Source: Halodesulfurarchaeum formicicum (GTDB lineage: Archaea > Halobacteriota > Halobacteria > Halobacteriales > Halobacteriaceae). Taken from it: a stretch of 64,000 bases of DNA. Made by a program: the position numbers and the translations under genes. This document shows, in pieces, positions 23,540 to 47,376 of this stretch; the stretch's first letter is position 1, and each line of letters opens with the position of its first letter. The stretch lies in NCBI RefSeq assembly GCF_001886955.1, contig NZ_CP016804.1:248001-312000 (forward strand), read 5' to 3'. Below the pieces are notes generated by a model. That model saw only the letters and a program-made list of their open reading frames with translations. It searched no databases and had not been told where the DNA came from.

Positions 23540-24367
23540 TTACTCCGGCTTTTCTTCTTCCCGCAGCTCCTCGAGTTCGGCCTCGACTTCGGATTCGTCG
23601 ACCTGGGCTTCGAGTTCGGCCTTGACTTCCTCGGCTTCGGCTTCTTTTTCGGTTTCCGGCTCGGCTTCGGCCGTGCCTTCCGACTCACGTAAGGTCTCTA
23701 GCTCGGCCTCGATATTCCGGTCCTCCCGGCCGGCTTCGAGTTCCCGGTCGATCTGGTCCTGGTCGGACATCGCGTTGTCCAGGACGCCACGGTCCTCCAG
23801 TTCGTCGAGTGCCGCGGCCCGGGCTTCCATCTCTTCGGTTTTCTCCGTGGCCTGGTCGATGGCCCGGCCGACGTCCTCCATTTCGTCTCCCACGCCGGTG
23901 ACTGCCTCCGAGACCCTGGTCTGTGCCTCGGCGGCCTCGTAACGAGCTTTCACGGTCTCCTTTTTGGTCTTGAACTCCTCGATCTGGCGCTTGAGATCGG
24001 CCTTCTTCTCCTCGAGGTTCCGCTGGGTGGACTCCAGGTTCTGGATCTGGCCGGCCAGGTCCTCGGCCTGTGAGCGCTTGGCCTGTTTTTTCTCTAACGC
24101 GCGTTTGGCCAGGTCCTCGCGGTCCTGGGCCATGGCCTCCCGGGCCTGTTCGTTGTGCTTCTCGATGTTCTCCTCGAGCCGATCCCGCTGGACCTCCAGG
24201 CGTTTTTTCTGGGCGGTGATGTCCGCGATGCCCTTCTCGACGTCGGTGAGTTCGTCCCGCATCTGCTGGTAGGAGTAATCCAGGGTCTCCGCGGGGTCTT
24301 CGGCCCGGCCGATGAGCGCGTTGAGCTTCGATCGAACCAGGAAGGACAGGCGTGAGAGCAGTCCCAT
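23540..24367 (-). CDS. pspA: PspA/IM30 family coiled-coil protein
   Basis: A 275-residue, mostly coiled-coil protein beginning [25 protein letters not shown], the amphipathic start and helix of PspA/Vipp1 family members, followed by [10 protein letters not shown] and long Lys/Glu/Gln-rich helices. These proteins assemble on membranes, stabilise them under stress and belong to the ESCRT-III superfamily. The C-terminal 60 residues are very acidic, as is common in haloarchaea. It is divergent from pyrG, with 86 bases between the start codons. No pspBC-like partner is adjacent. Confidence 0.9.
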
Positions 24368-24453
24368 GGGGGCTGTTTATGCTCCCACCGTTAAAACCCC
24401 TCACGCCCCATGCGTCCCGAAATGTTCTTGCCCGCCGGCACCGGACGGTCGGT

Positions 24454-26091
24454 ATGCCGACAGAGACCGGATACGACCCCTCACTGGGGGACAAGTTCAT
24501 TTTCGTCACTGGCGGGGTGATGTCGGGGCTCGGCAAGGGGATCACGGCGGCAAGTCTGGGCCGCCTCCTGGAGAACGCCGGCTTCGACGTGACCGCAGTC
24601 AAGATCGACCCCTATCTCAACGTCGACGCGGGGACGATGAATCCCTACCAGCACGGGGAAGTCTACGTCCTCAAGGACGGCGGCGAGGTCGATCTGGACC
24701 TGGGGAACTACGAGCGATTCCTGGACATCGACATGACCTTCGACCACAACGTCACGACGGGGAAGGTCTACCAGCATGTCATCAGTCGGGAGCGCTCGGG
24801 TGACTACCTCGGGAAGACCGTCCAGATCATCCCGCACATCACTGATGACATCAAGCGTCGCATCCGCGAGGCTGCCGAGGGCCACGACATCTGTCTCGTG
24901 GAGGTCGGCGGGACGGTGGGTGACATCGAGGGCATGCCCTTCCTGGAAGCGCTCCGGCAGTTCGTCGACGAGGAACCCGACGAGGACGTCCTCCTGACTC
25001 ACGTCACGCTGGTTCCCTACGCGCCAAACGGCGAGCAGAAGACCAAGCCGACCCAGCACAGCGTGAAGGAACTGCGCTCGATCGGGCTTCGGCCCGACAT
25101 CATCGTCGGTCGCTCGGATGATCCGCTCGAGGAATCCGTCCGGGAGAAGATCGCCCTGTTCGGTGACGTCCCGACCCGGGCCGTGTTCTCGAACTACGAT
25201 GTCGATGACGTGTACAAGGTCCCGCTCCTGCTGGAAGAAGAGGGCATGGACGAGTACGTCATGGACCGGCTCGATCTGGCCGACCGGGCGATCCCCCGGG
25301 CCCACCGCAGCACGGAGTGGCGCGAACTCGTCACCCAGGAGACCACCGCGGAACTGGACATCGCGCTGGTCGGGAAGTACGACCTGCGGGACGCCTACAT
25401 GTCGGTGCGTGAGGCGTTGAAACACGCCGGCCTCGATCACGGCGTCGACGTGAACGTCGAGTGGGTCGAGGCCGACCGGATGGACGACGGCGACGAAAAA
25501 CGCCTCGACGAGGCCGACGGCATCGTCGTCCCGGGCGGCTTCGGGAGTCGCGGCGTCGAGGGCAAGATGCGGGCGATCACCTACGCTCGCGAGAACGACG
25601 TGCCCTACCTCGGGCTCTGCTTTGGCTTCCAGCTGGCAGTCATCGAGTACGCCCGGAACGTGCTGGGCCTGGCAAACGCCCACTCCACCGAGATCGACGA
25701 GACGACCCCGGACCCGGTGATCGACCTCCTGCCGGACCAGTACGACCTGGAGGACCTCGGCGGCACGATGCGCCTGGGGGCCCACGAGACCCAGATCGAG
25801 CCCGGCACGCTGGCCCACGAGATCTACGGGGCCGACTCCTGCACCGAGCGCCATCGGCACCGCTACGAGGTCAATCCCGAGTACATCGAGGACCTCTCGG
25901 ATGGCAACCTGGTGTTCTCCGGCGAGGCGGGCAATCGGATGGAGATCCTGGAACTGGCCGACCATCCCTTCTTCCTGGGAACGCAGTTCCACCCCGAGTT
26001 CCGTTCCCGGCCGACCCGGGCGAGCCCACCCTTCGTCGGGTTCCTCGGAGCGATCCTTGCGGAACTGGAGACCGCTCAGGAGGTGGCCTGA
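24454..26091 (+). CDS. pyrG: CTP synthase
   Basis: A 545-residue enzyme that aminates UTP to CTP with glutamine. The N-terminal synthetase domain begins [17 protein letters not shown] and contains [12 protein letters not shown]. The C-terminal class I glutamine amidotransferase has its nucleophile C389 in LGLCFGFQ and the H513/E515 pair in QFHPEF. The ATG at 24454 fits the family start. guaAb begins one base after the pyrG stop, so pyrG, guaAb and a third small gene form a tight nucleotide operon. Confidence 0.97.
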
Positions 26092-26092
26092 G

Positions 26093-27010
26093 ATGGTCGA
26101 CGTCGAGACCTTCATCCCCGAAGCGAAAGCGGAGATCGAGGCGGCACTCGGTGACGAGACTGCGATCATCGCCCTCTCGGGCGGTGTAGACTCTTCGACG
26201 GCCGCCGCACTGGCCTACGAGGCTGTCGGCGATCAGCTCGTCCCGGTCTATGTCGACACCGGCCTGATGCGGAAGGGCGAGACCGAGGGCATTCGAGAGA
26301 CCTTCTCGCACATGGACTCCCTCCGGATCGTCGAGGCCCAGGATCGGTTCCTGGATGCCCTGGCGGGGGTCACCGACCCCGAGGAGAAACGCCACGCGAT
26401 CGGCGAGCAGTTCATCAGGGAGTTCGAGACGGTTGCAAAGGAAGTCGACGCCTCGATGCTGGTCCAGGGGACGATCTATCCGGATCGGATCGAGAGCGAG
26501 GGGACGATCAAGTCCCACCACAACGTCGGCGGCCTCCCAGAGGTCGTGGACTTCGACGGGATCGTCGAGCCCATGCGGGATCTCTACAAGGACGAGGTTC
26601 GCGAGGTCGCCCGGGAACTGGGGCTGGATTCGGTCGTCTCCGAACGAATGCCGTTCCCCGGTCCTGGTCTGGCCGTTCGGGTGCTGGGTGAGGTCACCGA
26701 GGAGAAACTGCGAGTCGCCCGCGAGGCCACCGCGGTCGTCGAGGACGAACTCGAGGAAGCGGACCCCTGGCAGGCCTTCGCGGCCGTGCTGGGCAAGGCG
26801 ACCGGCGTCAAGGGCGACAACCGCGTCCACGGCTGGATCGTCGCCGTCCGGTCGGTCGAGAGCCGGGACGGGATGACCGCCCGCGCACAGGCCCTGGACT
26901 GGGAGACCCTCCAGCGCATCCAGAGCCGCATCACCGGCCAGCTCGATTCGGTCTCCCGTGTCGTCTACGACGTGACCCACAAACCACCGGCCACGATCGA
27001 ATACGAATGA
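26093..27010 (+). CDS. guaAb: GMP synthase, PP-ATPase subunit
   Basis: A 305-residue ATP pyrophosphatase subunit of the split archaeal GMP synthetase. It activates XMP so that ammonia from the separate glutaminase subunit can make GMP. The PP-loop is [12 protein letters not shown] (about 26-37), and the C-terminal dimer domain has [16 protein letters not shown] and ends [18 protein letters not shown] as expected for GuaA. The glutaminase subunit (guaAa) is not seen nearby. It is packed against pyrG upstream, and its stop overlaps the next gene (ATGA). Confidence 0.95.
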
Positions 27011-27339
27011 CACACGCGATCATTGTGGGCCCCGATCGGGGGCTCGAAGCCGCGCTCGCGGCCCACGACGTGACGACGACCCGAATCGAGACGCCCGCGT
27101 CCGCCGCTGACCTGGACGCGGCCGAAATCGACGACGCCTCGCTGTTCTTCATCACCGACGGGGCCGAGGCGACGTTGATCCCGGTTGCCCGGGAGCAGCA
27201 CCCGGATCTGCGCATCGTCTGGTACGCAACCCAGGCTGTCCCGGAGTTCGTGACCCGCCAGCTGGACCTGGGGGTCGACCCCCGACTCGCGGACGCCGCC
27301 GTCCTCGTCGAGGAGCAACTCCAGGCACTCGAATCCTGA
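27007..27339 (+). CDS. Small haloarchaeal protein with Rossmann-like pattern (DUF7126-like)
   Basis: A 110-residue protein beginning [21 protein letters not shown], then [33 protein letters not shown], a pattern like a TrkA-N nucleotide-binding half domain. Small genes of this kind follow guaAb in haloarchaea and are annotated as DUF7126 or, without support, as CTP synthetase. It overlaps guaAb by four bases, so coupled expression with purine synthesis is likely. The function is unknown. Confidence 0.7.
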
Positions 27340-27384
27340 TCGACGGGAGTATCCACGACCGGGCTCAGCTAACGACTTCTTTAT

Positions 27385-27400
27385 TGCCCATTAATGGGCA
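27385..27400. promoter_or_regulatory. Perfect 16-bp palindrome upstream of the Cas6-like gene
   Basis: TGCCCATTAATGGGCA is a perfect inverted repeat lying 56 bases before the ATG at 27456 and about 20 bases upstream of a box A-like CTTAATG (27421-27427). Position and symmetry suggest an operator for a dimeric regulator. The regulator is not identified. Confidence 0.55.
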
Positions 27401-27455
27401 CATGTGTACTTTCCACCACGCTTAATGCAGTTCCCGCTAAACACTATGTGAGACG

Positions 27456-28388
27456 ATGACATCCCAGCCAGGGGGGGACTCAGTCTGCCGGATCGACGTC
27501 GAGTTGCGGCCGACCGAACGGGTATTGCTGACTGACATCATCGGCCATCCGGTTTATGACACCCTGCGGGTGCTTCTGGATGAGGCCGGCGTGGATCAGG
27601 ACGCGATCACGCCGCGGATTCCCGGGGTTCACGTCGGCGGGTTCTGGGGACGATACGGGGCGGGTGGCCGGCCACAGGAGCGAGCCCTCTCGCCGACGGA
27701 GACCTATCGATTCCAGCTAGGAGTAATCGACCCGGAGATGATCCCCGTTTTCAGGCAGGTCTTCGATCAGGTCATCCCCGAGGGGGCCCAGCTGCCATAC
27801 TCCGGTGGCACCCTGGAGGTCGTCTCCGCGACCCAGGAGTACACCGACCGCCAGGCCCTGCTCGAACGGGCGGCAGCGGTCGATACCCAGGCTATGAACG
27901 TCTGGTTTCGAACACCGACCTGCCTCGAGGAGACAGAGACCCGCACGATGTGTCCCAGCCGTGGGCCGGTGTTTAGTTCGCTGCTCGAAAACTGGAATCG
28001 ATGGGCGCCGGACGAACTCGTCTTCGATATCGACCGTGACCGGATCGAGGAGGCGGTTCGCGGGCGCCCCCACTTCCGCACGTTCGAGAGCCACGGCGTG
28101 GCAGTGGCCCGTGACGATGAAACCGATGCGGTGCAGACCCGGGAGGGGTTCTCCGGTGGCGTGACCTACGAGTTCGCCGAGGCGAACGGGGCCCTCCAGA
28201 ATGCACTCGTCGCAGCGGCGCTTTTGGGCGAGATCGCCGGCGTGGGGTACTACCGTGATCGTGGCTGTGGGGACCTCTCGGTCAGGGTCGCCGGCGACGA
28301 TACGACTGGCCTCTCGCCGATCCCCTGGCTCGGTCCGTCCCCGCTTTCGATTCGCCCATCGCCGTTCCGGGATCAGGAGAGCCATTAG
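27456..28388 (+). CDS. Cas6-like RAMP endoribonuclease (orphan)
   Basis: A 310-residue protein resembling the pfam10040 type of CRISPR pre-crRNA nuclease. The middle has MNVWFRTPTCLEET followed by SRGPVFSSLLENWNRWAPDEL, the second-domain start of Cas6 RAMP proteins. The C-terminal half has GFSGGVTYEF (about 231-240) and the glycine-rich GVGYYRDRGCGDLSVR (about 261-276), which matches the Cas6 G-rich loop. Possible catalytic histidines are H27 and H60, but none can be assigned by eye. No other cas gene or repeat array is in the window. It is preceded by a palindromic operator-like site and followed by the unrelated VOC gene. Confidence 0.75.
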   Translation: MTSQPGGDSVCRIDVELRPTERVLLTDIIGHPVYDTLRVLLDEAGVDQDAITPRIPGVHVGGFWGRYGAGGRPQERALSPTETYRFQLGVIDPEMIPVFRQVFDQVIPEGAQLPYSGGTLEVVSATQEYTDRQALLERAAAVDTQAMNVWFRTPTCLEETETRTMCPSRGPVFSSLLENWNRWAPDELVFDIDRDRIEEAVRGRPHFRTFESHGVAVARDDETDAVQTREGFSGGVTYEFAEANGALQNALVAAALLGEIAGVGYYRDRGCGDLSVRVAGDDTTGLSPIPWLGPSPLSIRPSPFRDQESH

Positions 28389-28410
28389 CCCCGGGACCCA
28401 ATCCTCGCGT

Positions 28411-29253
28411 ATGACCCAGTTCCTGCCAGCACAGACCCGACCGGGACGTCTCTCTCTTGCCGTCGCGGATCCCTACGCCGTCAGTTCCTTCTACCAGGAC
28501 GTCGTCGGGCTGGACCAGTTCGGGTACACGGAGTCCTCGGCTACCCTCGGGGCCGGCGAGACGCCGCTCGTGGAACTCACGGACGGGAGCGATCGGGAGC
28601 CCCGAACCGACGCCCAGGCGGGCCTCTATCACGTGGCCTTCCGCTACCCGTCTCAGGAGGCGCTCGGTGCCGCTCTCCACCGCGTCGAGAGCCTCTATCG
28701 GCTCGACGGCGCGACCGACCACGGTGTGACCCACTCGCTGTATCTCACGGATCCCGCGGGCAATGGCGTGGAACTCTTCGTCGACCAGCCCCGTGCTGAC
28801 TGGCCCGAAAACGAAGCCGGCGAGGTGACGATGCAGACCCAGCCGCTCGATCTGGATGCCCTGCGTGGGGCTGGCGAACCCGAGACCGACGCCCCGGCGG
28901 GGACGACGATCGGGCACTTCCATCTGGAGGTCACCGATCTGGCTGGGGCGACCGAATTCTATCGTGACGGGTTGGGGCTCGATATCTCCCGTGAGATCGG
29001 CGACATGGCCCGGTTTCTCGCCGTCGGGGACGCCCACCATCACCTCGGGCTCACGACCTATCAGGAGCGGACCGAGCCCGCGACTGGCCGGGGGCTGGAC
29101 TGGATCGAGTTTCTCACACCGACCGAGGCCGCCCTCGAGGCGGCCCGCGAGCGATTCGAGGCGATCGGGGTCGCTGTCGAAAGCCGGGAAAACGGTTTCG
29201 CGGTGACCGACCCCGACGGGATCGGGGTTCGACTGTCCCTGGCTGATCAGTGA
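28411..29253 (+). CDS. Two-module VOC family protein (glyoxalase/extradiol dioxygenase-like)
   Basis: A 280-residue protein with two vicinal-oxygen-chelate modules (about 8-125 and 165-278). Candidate metal ligands include H78 in GLYHVAFRY, E125 in NGVELFVDQ, and H169/H171 in IGHFHLEV. The plan is like catechol 2,3-dioxygenase or CatE-type proteins, but no aromatic pathway genes are nearby, so the substrate is not assigned. It starts 22 bases after the Cas6-like gene stop, and its end overlaps the moaB end by seven bases in convergent orientation. Confidence 0.82.
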   Translation: MTQFLPAQTRPGRLSLAVADPYAVSSFYQDVVGLDQFGYTESSATLGAGETPLVELTDGSDREPRTDAQAGLYHVAFRYPSQEALGAALHRVESLYRLDGATDHGVTHSLYLTDPAGNGVELFVDQPRADWPENEAGEVTMQTQPLDLDALRGAGEPETDAPAGTTIGHFHLEVTDLAGATEFYRDGLGLDISREIGDMARFLAVGDAHHHLGLTTYQERTEPATGRGLDWIEFLTPTEAALEAARERFEAIGVAVESRENGFAVTDPDGIGVRLSLADQ

Positions 29254-29831
29254 TCGGCGTGGCCCGCTCGCTGGGCCAGGCCCACGAGGTGCCCGATTTC
29301 TGGGAGAATAATCGCTTCGAGCCCGAGTTCGACGGCGTCGACGCTCCCGGGGAGCACGAAGACGGGGACGCCGTCGGCGACGCCGGCGGTGGCCCGGGTG
29401 GCGACGACCCGTGAACCGATCTCCGCTTTCGATTCCTGGCGGAAGAGTTCCCCGAATCCCGGCAGGTGCTTGTCGAAGAGCGGCCCGACGGCCTCGACGG
29501 TCACGTCGTCCGGTGTGACTCCGGTGCCACCCGTGGTGATCAGCACGTCGACGTCGCCGCGGTCGATGAGGTGATTCGCGACCGTCTGGATGCGATCGCC
29601 GTCGTCCCGGACCAGTTCGCGAGTGACGACTTCGTGGCCCGCCGATTCGAGTTCGTCCCGGATCGCTTCGCCACTGGGATCGTCATCGAGGGTTCGCGAG
29701 GACGAGACAGTGAGAATTGCCGCGCCCACGGTTTCCCGGTCGTGGGCGTGGTGATCGTGGTCGTGTGTCGCCGAGTCGCTCGTCGACTCGGTGTCACCGC
29801 GTTGGGTGTCCCGCTTTTGAAAGTCGACCAT
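29247..29831 (-). CDS. moaB: MoaB/Mog-type molybdopterin adenylyltransferase
   Basis: A 194-residue protein of molybdenum cofactor synthesis, expected to adenylylate molybdopterin. Residues 36-190 are the MoCF-biosynthesis fold: AAILTVSSSRTLDDDPSG, LITTGGTGVTPDDVTVEAV (about 97-115), and VFVLPGSVDAVEL. An N-terminal His/Asp-rich tail of about 34 residues (THDHDHHAHDRE) is unusual and might bind metal. It is divergent from the downstream idi only through position, with separate transcription. Confidence 0.9.
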   Translation of the reverse strand: MVDFQKRDTQRGDTESTSDSATHDHDHHAHDRETVGAAILTVSSSRTLDDDPSGEAIRDELESAGHEVVTRELVRDDGDRIQTVANHLIDRGDVDVLITTGGTGVTPDDVTVEAVGPLFDKHLPGFGELFRQESKAEIGSRVVATRATAGVADGVPVFVLPGSVDAVELGLEAIILPEIGHLVGLAQRAGHADH

Positions 29832-29854
29832 AACGCGTCTTTGGTTGCCCCGCC

Positions 29855-30424
29855 CTAAGTGCTATCGCCGCGGAAGTCCCGGCGCATCGCGATGTCGAAC
29901 CAGGGGCAGGTTCGAAGCTGGCGGTAGTTCCGGGGGTTCTCCCAGAGGTCCTCGTAGTCGACCCAGAGGGTGCCTCCGACCTCCTCGGGGTCCGGGTCGA
30001 GGGTGGGATCAGTTACGGTTGCGGTGAGCACCGCACAGACCTCCCACTCCAGCCCCTCATCGAGGTAGTAGCGTTTGTATTCGAACCGGTCGGTGATTTC
30101 CAGGTCGCCGTACTGGTCGGGAGTCACCCCGAGTTCCTCCTCCAGGCGCTCTTCGGTGGCTTCGATCTGGGTCTGTCCCTCGGTGGGATGGGAGGCGACG
30201 GTGCCGTCCCAGTGGGTGTCCCAGAGCCGTTTGTTCCGGGCGCGCTGGGCCAGCAGGACCCGTCCCTGCTCGTCGAAGAGCATACAGGTAAAGGCGCGAT
30301 GGCGGATGCCGTCACCGGTGTGGGCCTCCAGGCGGTCGACGAGGCCCTGTGGCTCGTCGTCCGCGTCGACTGCGATCACTTCCTCGCCGCCCGACCGCTC
30401 TTTCGGGGCGCTCTGATCGGTCAT
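29855..30424 (-). CDS. Type 1 isopentenyl-diphosphate delta-isomerase family (catalytic Cys absent)
   Basis: A 189-residue Nudix-fold protein aligned by eye to E. coli IDI-1. Metal ligands are kept: H35, H42, H79, E126 and E128. The position of the essential cysteine (NSVCGHP in E. coli) reads GTVASHP, so Cys is replaced by A77. Type 1 IDI converts IPP to DMAPP for isoprenoid lipids and carotenoids. With this change, activity is uncertain and another substrate or a different proton donor is possible. The start at 30424 gives the family length. It lies between moaB and the Lrp gene, all on the same strand. Confidence 0.82.
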   Translation of the reverse strand: MTDQSAPKERSGGEEVIAVDADDEPQGLVDRLEAHTGDGIRHRAFTCMLFDEQGRVLLAQRARNKRLWDTHWDGTVASHPTEGQTQIEATEERLEEELGVTPDQYGDLEITDRFEYKRYYLDEGLEWEVCAVLTATVTDPTLDPDPEEVGGTLWVDYEDLWENPRNYRQLRTCPWFDIAMRRDFRGDST

Positions 30425-30465
30425 GGATTGGCCAACGACCACCCCGGATTTGTAGTCACCGGTCC

Positions 30466-30879
30466 TCACCCGCGGGTCTCTTCGAGGATCAGTCGGGTCT
30501 TGGTCGAGCGGACCTCCGCTTGCTCCCGCGTGCGAGTGATGAGTTCGTTCACCCGCTCGGTGTCCATCGCGTCGACGATCAACACCATGTCCTCCTCGCC
30601 GGAGACCTGCCAGACGAAATCGACTTCCGTCCACTCGGCCATCCGCTCGGCCAGTGCCTGGGTGTCGACGTCGACGGCGACCGACACTTCGACCATCGAT
30701 TTCACGTTGCCCGTGCGGGTCGCGATGGTGAACCGCTCGATCGTGCCGTTCTCGAGCAGCCGATCGACCCGGTTGCGAACGGTCCCCTCCGAGACATCGA
30801 GCATGTCGCCGATTTCGGTGTAGGGGGTCCGGGAGTCCTGTCGAAGCAGGGCCAGAATTTCCCGGTCGAGGTCGTCCAT
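30466..30879 (-). CDS. Lrp/AsnC family transcription regulator
   Basis: A 137-residue regulator with an N-terminal helix-turn-helix (LDREILALLRQDSRTPYTEIGDMLDVSEGTVRNRVDRL) and a C-terminal RAM ligand domain (VEVSVAVDVDTQ, VSGEEDMVLIVDA). Lrp proteins bind amino acids such as glutamine and act as octamers or dimers on palindromic AT-rich sites. It is divergent from carA with 96 bases between starts, and this gap contains an inverted repeat at 30918-30938, so it may control carA and itself. The ligand is not assignable. Confidence 0.92.
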   Translation of the reverse strand: MDDLDREILALLRQDSRTPYTEIGDMLDVSEGTVRNRVDRLLENGTIERFTIATRTGNVKSMVEVSVAVDVDTQALAERMAEWTEVDFVWQVSGEEDMVLIVDAMDTERVNELITRTREQAEVRSTKTRLILEETRG

Positions 30880-30911
30880 GTTCCACTCTCCGTCGCCTGG
30901 CCGAAAACTGT

Positions 30912-30938
30912 TTCGAATTTCGTAATTCCGCTACGAAA
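30912..30938. promoter_or_regulatory. Likely Lrp operator and carA upstream motif
   Basis: TTCGAATTTCG (30912-30922) overlaps the inverted repeat TTTCGTA-N7-TACGAAA (30918-30938). It lies between the lrp and carA starts, just upstream of the carA box A (CTTATATT, about 30945-30952). The same 11 bases occur before carB at 35954-35964. Confidence 0.6.
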
Positions 30939-30975
30939 GCAAGCCTTATATTCTCCGCAGCGTTTGAATCTCGTA

Positions 30976-32043
30976 ATGTCGGACGCCTACATCGCCCTGG
31001 AGACCGGGGAGGTCCTCGAGGGTCGCGCCAGGTCGCCCGGGGAGACCCACGGCGAACTTGTCTTCACCACGCCGTATACCGGCTACGAGGAGAGCCTGAC
31101 CGACCCCTCTTACGAGGCCCAGGTACTGACCTTCGCCTACCCGCTGATCGGCAACTACGGCGTCCGAGCGGAGCGCTTCGAGTCCGATCGTGTCCATCCC
31201 AGCGCGGTCGTCGCCCGCGAACTCACCGACGACGTCGCCGTGTGGCTTCAGGAGGAGGGGATTCCCGCCGTCGACTCGGTAGACACGCGGGATCTCGTCC
31301 TGGACATTCGTGACGGCGGCGCGATGCAGTGTGGTATCGCCGCCGGTCCCGATGCGACTCCCGAAAAGGCCCGGGAGCAACTCTCGGTCTGTCCACACAT
31401 GAGCGACATTTCGGACATCGGGGACATGGTCAGCGTCGACGACGTCGAGGTGTATCCCGCGGAGGGGGATGGGCCGACCACCGCGTTGATCCACTGTGGA
31501 ACGAAAAAGAGCATCATCTCCTCGCTGAACGAGCGTGGCTCGGACGTCCACGTCTTCCCACACGACGTCGCGCCTGCCGAGATCGAAGCGCTGGACCCGG
31601 ACCTGCTCTTCATCTCGAACGGGCCGGGCGACCCGGCCAACTACGAGGCCACCCAGTCCCTGGTCGAGCACTTCCTCGGTGATATCCCCATCGCAGGCAT
31701 CTGTCTGGGGATGCAGATCGTCGCCAACGCGGTCAACGGCGAGACCGAGAAGATGGAGTTCGGCCACCGGGGGGTCAACCAGCCCGTCCTGGACGAGCGC
31801 ACCGGCCAGGTCGTCATGACGACCCAGAATCACGGCTACATGGTTTCGGATGCCGGGGACCTGGACGTGACCCAGATCAACGTCAACGACGACACGCCGG
31901 AGGGTGCCGAATCCGTCGACATGGACGTCATCACCCGCCAGTACCACCCCGAGGCCCATCCCGGCCCCCACGATACGCTTGGCTTTTTCGACGACGTGCT
32001 CTCGATGGCCGCGGCCGGCGCCCATCCCGAAGCGACCCAGTAG
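30976..32043 (+). CDS. carA: Carbamoyl-phosphate synthase small (glutaminase) subunit
   Basis: A 355-residue subunit that hydrolyses glutamine and passes ammonia to CarB for carbamoyl phosphate, the precursor of arginine and pyrimidines. The N-terminal CPSase domain (TGEVLEGRARS, FTTPYTGYEESLTDPSYE) is followed by a class I amidotransferase with nucleophile C244 in AGICLGMQ and QYHPEAHPGPHD. The ATG at 30976 is 25 bases from a box A. carB is 650 bases further on but on the opposite strand, so the two subunits are transcribed convergently. Confidence 0.96.
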   Translation: MSDAYIALETGEVLEGRARSPGETHGELVFTTPYTGYEESLTDPSYEAQVLTFAYPLIGNYGVRAERFESDRVHPSAVVARELTDDVAVWLQEEGIPAVDSVDTRDLVLDIRDGGAMQCGIAAGPDATPEKAREQLSVCPHMSDISDIGDMVSVDDVEVYPAEGDGPTTALIHCGTKKSIISSLNERGSDVHVFPHDVAPAEIEALDPDLLFISNGPGDPANYEATQSLVEHFLGDIPIAGICLGMQIVANAVNGETEKMEFGHRGVNQPVLDERTGQVVMTTQNHGYMVSDAGDLDVTQINVNDDTPEGAESVDMDVITRQYHPEAHPGPHDTLGFFDDVLSMAAAGAHPEATQ

Positions 32044-45098: not shown

Positions 45099-45500
45099 TC
45101 ACTTCCAGATGGTCGTCTCGCTCGCGAACTCCACATCAGCGGTGACGATCGCTTCGGTGTCCCGGACTCGATGATTCGCTATCAGCAGGGCGTCGTGTAG
45201 CGTGTGGTGGGTAACGAGGCTGGCAAAAACCGCGAGGTCCTGCTCGTCGCTCGGAGCGACCTGAACCGGGCCGTCGTTCACGAGCCCGCCCAGCACTTCC
45301 TTCGCCGAAACGTCGACCTCGATGCCCGCGATTTTCCCCTTCTTCGATGCAGCCCAGATGGCTTCGCTGACGGCCACTGTTGGTGCTTCGAGCACGTCGA
45401 TCCCTTGTTCGGCCCGCTCGAAAACCTCGTCTGCGGCTGCCGGCAGTCGATCGACGAGATAGTGGGCCATAGCCACGCCGTCGACGGTGTAGCGAGTCAC
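45099..45500 (-). CDS. vapC: PIN-domain ribonuclease toxin (VapC family)
   Basis: A 133-residue PIN nuclease with the expected acidic residues D7 (YTVDGVAMAHYL), E46 (AVSEAIWA), D103 (TLHDALLIA) and D122 (IVTADVEF). The start chosen is GTG at 45500, which overlaps the antitoxin stop as GTGA and begins MTRYTVDG; a GTG at 45509 would add three residues. In related pairs VapC cuts tRNA or rRNA when its antitoxin is lost. The target here is unknown. Confidence 0.87.
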   Translation of the reverse strand: MTRYTVDGVAMAHYLVDRLPAAADEVFERAEQGIDVLEAPTVAVSEAIWAASKKGKIAGIEVDVSAKEVLGGLVNDGPVQVAPSDEQDLAVFASLVTHHTLHDALLIANHRVRDTEAIVTADVEFASETTIWK

Positions 45501-45772
45501 GGATGCCACTCCGTCCGACGCTTCTTGCGGATCTCGGCCGCCATCTCTTCGGCCATCTCCTCGCGTTTTTCTGCCGCAACGTCTTCGACTAACATGCCAC
45601 GTCCCGCCGAGCCCGTCGCCTTCTTGATCCGAATCCCGTCTTCGGTCTTTTCCCAGCGGATTTCGTCTCCCTCATCGAGGCCAAGCTCGTCGCGGAACGC
45701 TTTTGGGATCGTCACCTGGCCCTTCCGGGTGATACGGGTCGTTTCGCTCTCGATATCGTTCCCCGTACTCAT
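45497..45772 (-). CDS. vapB: AbrB/SpoVT-type antitoxin (VapB)
   Basis: A 91-residue antitoxin with a swapped-hairpin DNA-binding domain (TTRITRKGQVTIPKAFRDELGLDEGDEIRW, key residues K-G-Q-V-T-I-P) and a charged C-terminal helix (EDVAAEKREEMAEEMAAE) that probably binds the toxin. The ATG at 45772 is preferred to a TTG six bases earlier. A perfect 9-bp inverted repeat lies immediately upstream, suited to autorepression. It is coupled to vapC by a GTGA overlap. Confidence 0.9.
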   Translation of the reverse strand: MSTGNDIESETTRITRKGQVTIPKAFRDELGLDEGDEIRWEKTEDGIRIKKATGSAGRGMLVEDVAAEKREEMAEEMAAEIRKKRRTEWHP

Positions 45773-45778
45773 TATCAA

Positions 45779-45972: not shown

Positions 45973-47229
45973 GTGGCAACGGACTATGTGCGTCGGACGG
46001 CAATCACTCGCCTCTTGGTGACTGACGAGCAACGTGATCTGCTCGAAGATACCATCACCGAGTGGAAACGTGGTTGCCAACTCGCTACGGACATGGCGTG
46101 GGGTAAGTGCAACGCAAAAAGCGATGTACAGCCCCTCGCCTACGACGACGTGCGTGAGCAAACCGACCTCAGTAGTCAGCACGCGATTCTTGCTACCCAC
46201 CAAGCCGCACAAGCCATCACCGGCTGTATCGAACGCCGGTCTAAGGGCAAGAAGGCTACCAAACCGACCTTCAGCGCTCCGACGGTGAAATACGACACTC
46301 GGACGATGACGCTGTTTGAGGACGATACAGTATCTCTCGCAACCACAGAGAGTCGCGTCAGATGTGAACTTGCCTTGCCCGAGGACGACGACGGCTACCA
46401 GCGACAGTACCTTGATTCAGAGGAGTGGAACGTCACCGAAAGCACGCTAACCACTCGTGACGGTGACTTCTTCTTACATATCGGTTTCCGTCGACACAAG
46501 ACCGATACCGAACGGGACACCGCCGAGGACGGAACGGTCCTCGGGGTTGACCTCGGCATCGAGAACCTTGCCGTCACCAGCACTGCCTATTTCTTCAGCG
46601 GGCGAGAGCTAACCCACGACCTTCGCGAGTTCGAGAAGGTACGCACCGGCTTGCAACAGACCGGGACACGAAGCGCCCACCGGACACTCGAACAGTTGAG
46701 TGGCCGGGAACTGCAGTACATTCGCGACGTGTTACACCGGGCGTCGAACGCCATCGTTGACGAAGCACGTCGGTACGAGTGTGATGTGATTGCGTTCGAG
46801 GACTTGACGCATATCCGTGAGCAAACGGGGGCGTCGTGGGGCCATAAGTGGGCGTTCCGCACGCTCTACGAGCAAGTCGATTACAAAGCAGAGGCAGTTG
46901 GAATCTCCGTGAAACAAGTTGGGCCAGCATACACGTCGAAACGGTGTGCAGAGTGTGGATTCACGGCAGACGAGAACCGCTCAACTCGCAACGATTTCTG
47001 CTGTCAGAAGTGCGGGACAGAAGCGAACGCAGATTACAATGCGGCGAAGAACATCGGTATGCGCTATGTCCGTCGGGGCCAACAGTCGTCTCGGCGGACG
47101 GGCGACAGTCAACTCGCCCTAAAGTCTGGAACAGTGACGCCGAACGGCGGATTTACTGCCTACCCGGACGGGTTTGAGGCCGAGTTCACGGACAAGCCCC
47201 ACCCTCCACGAGCGAAGTCTTCTGACTGA
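45973..47229 (+). CDS. tnpB: TnpB, RNA-guided nuclease of an IS1341-type element
   Basis: A 418-residue TnpB. The RuvC triad is complete: D193 (GVDLGIENLAV), E276 (IAFEDLTHIRE) and D354 (NADYNAAKNI). A zinc finger CAECG...CQKCG (about 327-348) lies between the last two. It should therefore be an active nuclease guided by an RNA made from the element right end. The start is GTG at 45973; AATTTAAG about 27-33 bases upstream is a box A. The stop codon lies inside the right-end hairpin, so the coding end and the guide RNA scaffold overlap. Confidence 0.93.
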   Translation: MATDYVRRTAITRLLVTDEQRDLLEDTITEWKRGCQLATDMAWGKCNAKSDVQPLAYDDVREQTDLSSQHAILATHQAAQAITGCIERRSKGKKATKPTFSAPTVKYDTRTMTLFEDDTVSLATTESRVRCELALPEDDDGYQRQYLDSEEWNVTESTLTTRDGDFFLHIGFRRHKTDTERDTAEDGTVLGVDLGIENLAVTSTAYFFSGRELTHDLREFEKVRTGLQQTGTRSAHRTLEQLSGRELQYIRDVLHRASNAIVDEARRYECDVIAFEDLTHIREQTGASWGHKWAFRTLYEQVDYKAEAVGISVKQVGPAYTSKRCAECGFTADENRSTRNDFCCQKCGTEANADYNAAKNIGMRYVRRGQQSSRRTGDSQLALKSGTVTPNGGFTAYPDGFEAEFTDKPHPPRAKSSD

Positions 47230-47253: not shown

Positions 47254-47376
47254 CCCCACTAGGGTCCGTCTGAAACCATGGCCAAAACCGGCCACTTGCG
47301 CCCTGCTACTCCCCGCTGGCTGTTAGTAGTTTCGTCGACCCACAATAGCCCGAAAACCCCCGGGGGGTCGATGAAC

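Follow-up and report, generated by a model that had tools for sequence, protein, structure and literature searches.

The window analysed here is a stretch of 64,000 nucleotides (64 kb) from Halodesulfurarchaeum formicicum HSR6, covering 248001-312000 of a single contig of 2,085,946 bases, and the gene under study is an intact open reading frame of 310 aa located among housekeeping genes. The features on which the analysis draws are the following, with positions counted within the window and G002 denoting the genome of a sister species.

24463 to 26091, forward strand: pyrG (CTP synthase), a conserved housekeeping neighbour
26093 to 27010, forward strand: guaA-type gene, which we take to be guaA, a conserved housekeeping neighbour placed from its L105 coordinates
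27007 to 27339, forward strand: DUF7126 gene, conserved throughout the family in the absence of cas6
27385 to 27400, no strand: palindrome TGCCCATTAATGGGCA, whose right arm is not preserved in G002
27417 to 27433, forward strand: upstream stretch CACGYTTAATGCAGTTC, common to HSR6 and G002, some 30 bp upstream of the start codon
27456 to 28388, forward strand: detached cas6 with type I-D ancestry, with the G-rich loop kept, the canonical histidine lost and an extra C-terminal tail
28411 to 29253, forward strand: glyoxalase-family gene, downstream neighbour of cas6
29247 to 29831, reverse strand: moaB-type molybdopterin-binding gene, found close to DUF7126 in four further genomes of the family
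45973 to 47229, forward strand: TnpB gene (Cas12f1-like TNB and OrfB_IS605 domains), the element interrupting a relic mini-array
47254 to 47276, reverse strand: I-B-like CRISPR repeat, a relic truncated to 23 of its 30 nt, overlooked in the initial annotation

The protein matched PF10040 with 46.6 bits (E 5.8e-12, curated cut-off 25), the sole PF10040 match across the HSR6 genome, and was scored by PADLOC as Cas6 (283.6 bits) and Cas6d (199 bits, E 3e-59). Its AlphaFold2 model (pLDDT 77, pTM 0.80) is predicted to contain the two ferredoxin-like domains of Cas6, and was aligned by VIA-align with 6fjw at Z 22.6 and 2.9 Å over 234 residues. Against solved Cas6 structures the best Foldseek E value was 3.4e-16; the top match was 4ill, which like 3zfv is an archaeal Cas6 of the Sso1437 kind. 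In addition, G262, G264, R269, G270 and G272 of the G-rich loop were retained in the C-terminal part. The gene is real and belongs to Cas6 (PF10040/RAMP superfamily), as the initial annotation had proposed, and family match, PADLOC, predicted fold and G-rich loop all agree on this point. A second in-genome match (C1:333365) was an unrelated ORF, Lrp-like by sequence reading only, and was set aside as a chance hit. Residues from about 282 to 310 (window 28300-28385) form a tail rich in proline at the C-terminus, which had low pLDDT in the model, was absent from the three type I-D Cas6 proteins aligned with the orphan, and was nearly the same in G002, with one change relative to HSR6.

The gene is also solitary, as previously noted: no cas gene was seen among the open reading frames of 24000-32000 or in a family scan of 7 proteins of the window, and no direct-repeat array (copies at most 120 apart) was present in the 64-kb window. 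DUF7126 was found in 25/26 family genomes (E <= 0.001), many of which contain the pyrG-guaA-DUF7126 block with no match to cas6. In the four other genomes with moaB near DUF7126, no cas6 match lay in between, and at L108 no ORF longer than 94 aa was seen wholly within the DUF7126-moaB gap. Since the block recurs elsewhere without cas6, the orphan sits in a housekeeping neighbourhood (pyrG-guaA-DUF7126-cas6-glyoxalase-moaB).

The perfect 16-bp palindrome TGCCCATTAATGGGCA upstream of cas6, read in the initial annotation as the gene's own operator, is real; the operator role is not supported, since the palindrome is unremarkable in the window and G002 has a disrupted right arm. Counting this one, the window holds 6 perfect palindromes of at least 16 bp, where a dinucleotide model gave an expectation of 2.1 and a maximum of 5 in 30 simulations. 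The stretch CACGYTTAATGCAGTTC, TATA-like in position, is probably the promoter.

To place the gene among its relatives, plasmid and genome records were compared. In all ten plasmid records matching the orphan, the match extended over 80% or more of the query; 8 of them are annotated as cas6 and 2 are unannotated, and the three inspected more closely lie in type I-D operons. At the level of the order, 44/392 genomes had a match, including two of Halodesulfurarchaeum; flanks were inspected in 31 of the 42 matching genomes outside the genus, the other eleven being without an examined locus. Cas10d stood beside cas6 in 31/31 of these loci and Csa3 in 30/31, and both were absent from the flanks of the two Halodesulfurarchaeum copies. 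A scan of genome contigs returned 0 loci with a single-protein query and 38 with an alignment query; in this second set, which overlaps the first, Cas10d was found in 36/38 loci and Cas10d or Csa3 in 38/38. Within the family, matches were confined to 5/26 genomes, namely HSR6, G002 and three of another genus, and the genus member G001, which is only 72% complete, had no match. No relative was found among viral contigs or phages, so a viral origin was discarded. A search of the HSR6 genome for the core of the type I-D repeat, allowing at most 3 mismatches, gave no match, and Csc2 was found in none of the 3 genus genomes.

Compared with haloarchaeal Cas6d, the orphan has 32-38% identity over almost the whole length, the same two-domain fold and the G-rich loop, but differs in having no adjacent csa3 or cas10d, in changed His, Tyr and His-Lys positions, in a very long branch and in the extra tail. 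Taken together, the comparisons indicate that the ancestor of the orphan was the Cas6 of a type I-D CRISPR-Cas operon in haloarchaea. In a tree of 57 of the 73 rows, with the truncated L102 and L104 excluded and entries with identical C-terminal 200 residues merged, the stem of the orphan pair measured 3.66 changes per column, a model extrapolation, where the median for end branches was 0.11. The exact place of the orphans in this tree is unsure, because the midpoint root falls on their own long branch. In the same tree, the Cas6 proteins of L067 and L091, from contigs titled Spirochaetaceae and Mesotoga, stood among haloarchaeal and Methanothrix ones; these contigs are probably misbinned or transferred.

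Residue conservation was examined in an alignment of the orphans and 71 relatives, 69 of which had letters at the N-terminal columns. All 69 readable relatives carry His at column 51 and Tyr at column 31, where the two orphans carry Ile and His, respectively. At column 75, 66/69 relatives have His and the orphans Glu; at column 76, 64/69 have Lys, and Arg stands in 3 relatives and in the two orphans. Column homology at the lost sites is less sure than usual because of the very long orphan stem. Many other type I-D-conserved residues were also altered. The histidine of column 51, which by its spacing may correspond to P. furiosus His46, is probably the catalytic one in the type I-D relatives. 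In the model of the type I-D protein L014, where this invariant His is residue 57, it is predicted to sit in a helix spanning 50-58, and the corresponding helix appears to shrink to 48-50 in the orphan model. Profiles of type I-D Cas6 and of the I-B Cas6 of HSR6 could not be usefully aligned, and residue mapping between the two was dropped.

The loss of the histidine is not proof of lost cutting, because the Cas6 of S. solfataricus cleaves without a histidine by means of a network of basic residues, as a passage of PMC3652601 describes, and because the Haloferax Cas6 mutant H41A retains 37% of crRNA, compared with 12% for G256A and 0% for G258A, according to an excerpt of PMC3945376. The loss thus suggests that the chemistry has changed, though not necessarily that it is gone. 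In the wording of the initial annotation, Cas6-like is confirmed and RNase is doubtful, because the histidine of all 69 readable relatives is missing. Two known proteins have features in common with the orphan. PfuCas6nc (PDB 3ufc), termed non-catalytic in a portion of PMC3652601, also combines a Cas6 fold with the lack of usual catalysis (VIA-align Z 17.0, 3.5 Å, 228 residues), but is distant in sequence, with 9% identity over aligned residues. S. solfataricus Cas6 (Sso1437) likewise misses the canonical histidine, but operates within CRISPR with its basic-residue network, as stated in the same portion of that paper.

The orphan might still be an active endoribonuclease on host RNA whose catalytic histidine has moved to His31, with which helix 1 begins, a tentative alternative that we regard as unlikely. 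His31 replaces the invariant Tyr in both orphans and is predicted to open the model helix 31-43, and a passage of PMC3652601 places the histidine of Cas6e and Cas6f in helix alpha1 as well. Against this, model confidence around His31 is moderate (block means of pLDDT 73-77). The fuller version, in which an archaeal Cas6 has left CRISPR wholly and processes host RNA with a His31 site rebuilt on helix 1, is doubtful.

A CRISPR system does exist elsewhere in HSR6. Cas1 lies at 1199952-1200791, in a type I-B operon with the order Cas6 (PF01881; PADLOC Cas6b), Cas8b/Csh1, Cas7/Csh2, Cas5b, Cas3, Cas4 and Cas1, followed by an array of 39 repeats GTTTCAGACGAACCTGTGAGGGATTGAAGC, of which the final copy carries a single change; operon and array lie some 0.9 Mb away from the orphan. 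Of the two findings that were to refute the initial annotation, a cas operon elsewhere with a Cas6 of its own is thus present, but the other, alignment of the gene to a non-RAMP family, is not, as the gene aligns to Cas6. The remote array foreseen in the initial annotation was therefore found, on the same chromosome, and its repeat ends in GGGATTGAAGC, which resembles the GGGATTGAAAC that closes the type I-D repeat, as would suit an orphan acting as an auxiliary Cas6 that processes this array in trans, beside Cas6b or in its place. Such service is nevertheless improbable, since the I-B operon has its own full-length Cas6b, since the I-B CRISPR-Cas island is unique to HSR6 relative to HTSR1 (98.58% ANI) according to an excerpt of PMC5437934, and since G002 keeps the orphan though Cas1, Cas7 (PF05107) and Csc2 were not found there by searches for those three.

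To assess whether the gene is maintained, the HSR6 copy was compared with that of G002 (99% complete), which is 93% identical and has the same neighbours. The 310-codon frame is unbroken in both species, and differences fell 10, 11 and 51 times on the three codon positions, with 48.5 synonymous changes over 237 sites and 23.5 nonsynonymous changes over 693 (Fisher p 1.7e-14). The resulting dN/dS of 0.145 (NG86) or 0.10 (YN00), an estimate that rests on a single species pair because only two species carry the orphan, is comparable to the NG86 values of the neighbours, 0.17 for glyoxalase and 0.13 for DUF7126; guaA is left out of this comparison, and TnpB has no counterpart in G002. This pattern indicates that the orphan is under purifying selection and is not decaying, and a long stem followed by constraint is what a switch to another function would be expected to leave. 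A functionless remnant of a lost type I-D locus would agree with the many changed residues and with the missing I-D repeat and Csc2, but is very improbable in view of the intact frame, the codon-position bias and dN/dS values like those of the neighbouring genes.

At the site in G002 corresponding to the repeat relic, two I-B-like repeats surround a 36-nt spacer, 17.6 kb from the orphan; the HSR6 stub is 23 nt of the first G002 repeat, cut off by the TnpB element. The relic suggests an older array lost in the genus, and no link between it and the orphan was seen beyond the moderate distance. A CreTA module would have a degenerate repeat pair and a spacer that partly matches a nearby promoter; the repeat pair is present in G002 only, and the spacer had no full-length target besides itself in the 38 kb of G002 searched, at the thresholds used. 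As to regulation of a nearby gene by the spacer, only seed-length matches without further pairing were found there. A MazE-type antitoxin gene and a downstream partner, PIN-like as far as its sequence can be read, occupy window 45100-45778 (reverse strand) and adjoin the relic mini-array in both species. That the orphan is the partner of this degenerate two-repeat (CreA-like) mini-array some 18 kb away is scarcely credible despite the repeat pair and stub at matching sites, since the repeat is I-B-like and not I-D-like, TnpB destroyed the mini-array in HSR6 and yet the orphan stayed, the spacer lacks a full-length target in the stretch searched, and no Cas7 or Csc2 for an effector was found in G002.

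The explanation we favour, with somewhat better than even confidence, is a Cas6d detached from CRISPR that may act on host RNA, either by binding it or by cutting it with a rebuilt site. A type I-D Cas6 came to stand alone in the housekeeping block of the Halodesulfurarchaeum lineage and lost the canonical histidine together with many other type I-D-conserved residues. The orphan then settled under purifying selection with its second RAMP domain and G-rich loop intact, and most probably now works outside CRISPR, binding one or more chromosomal transcripts through this loop and the cleft between the ferredoxin-like domains; bound transcripts could be protected or chaperoned, or cut slowly by the rebuilt site. 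Kinship, isolation, synteny, residue losses, constraint and the lack of Cas1, Cas7 and Csc2 matches in G002 are observed; loss or change of catalysis, RNA binding and a host target are the conjectural parts of this scheme, and repurposing is the part of the earlier reading that has fared best.

Detached cas6 genes are already known, and a passage of PMC3575380 states that cas6 genes are sometimes single and apart from other cas cassettes; that passage mentions no selected copy without the histidine in a genome without other cas genes. Likewise, titles and abstract openings in the open-licence PMC literature contained no description of a conserved orphan cas6 lacking the histidine. What is new here is a selected, His-less cas6 copy in a sister species in which searches for Cas1, Cas7 and Csc2 found no other cas gene. 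Proteins leaving CRISPR for other work are more often discussed than caught, and with CRISPR in one species, seemingly none in its sister, the gene in both and clear residue changes that mark an altered chemistry, Halodesulfurarchaeum offers a clean, testable case of Cas6 exaptation. It also means that a cas6 match alone does not signify a working CRISPR system.
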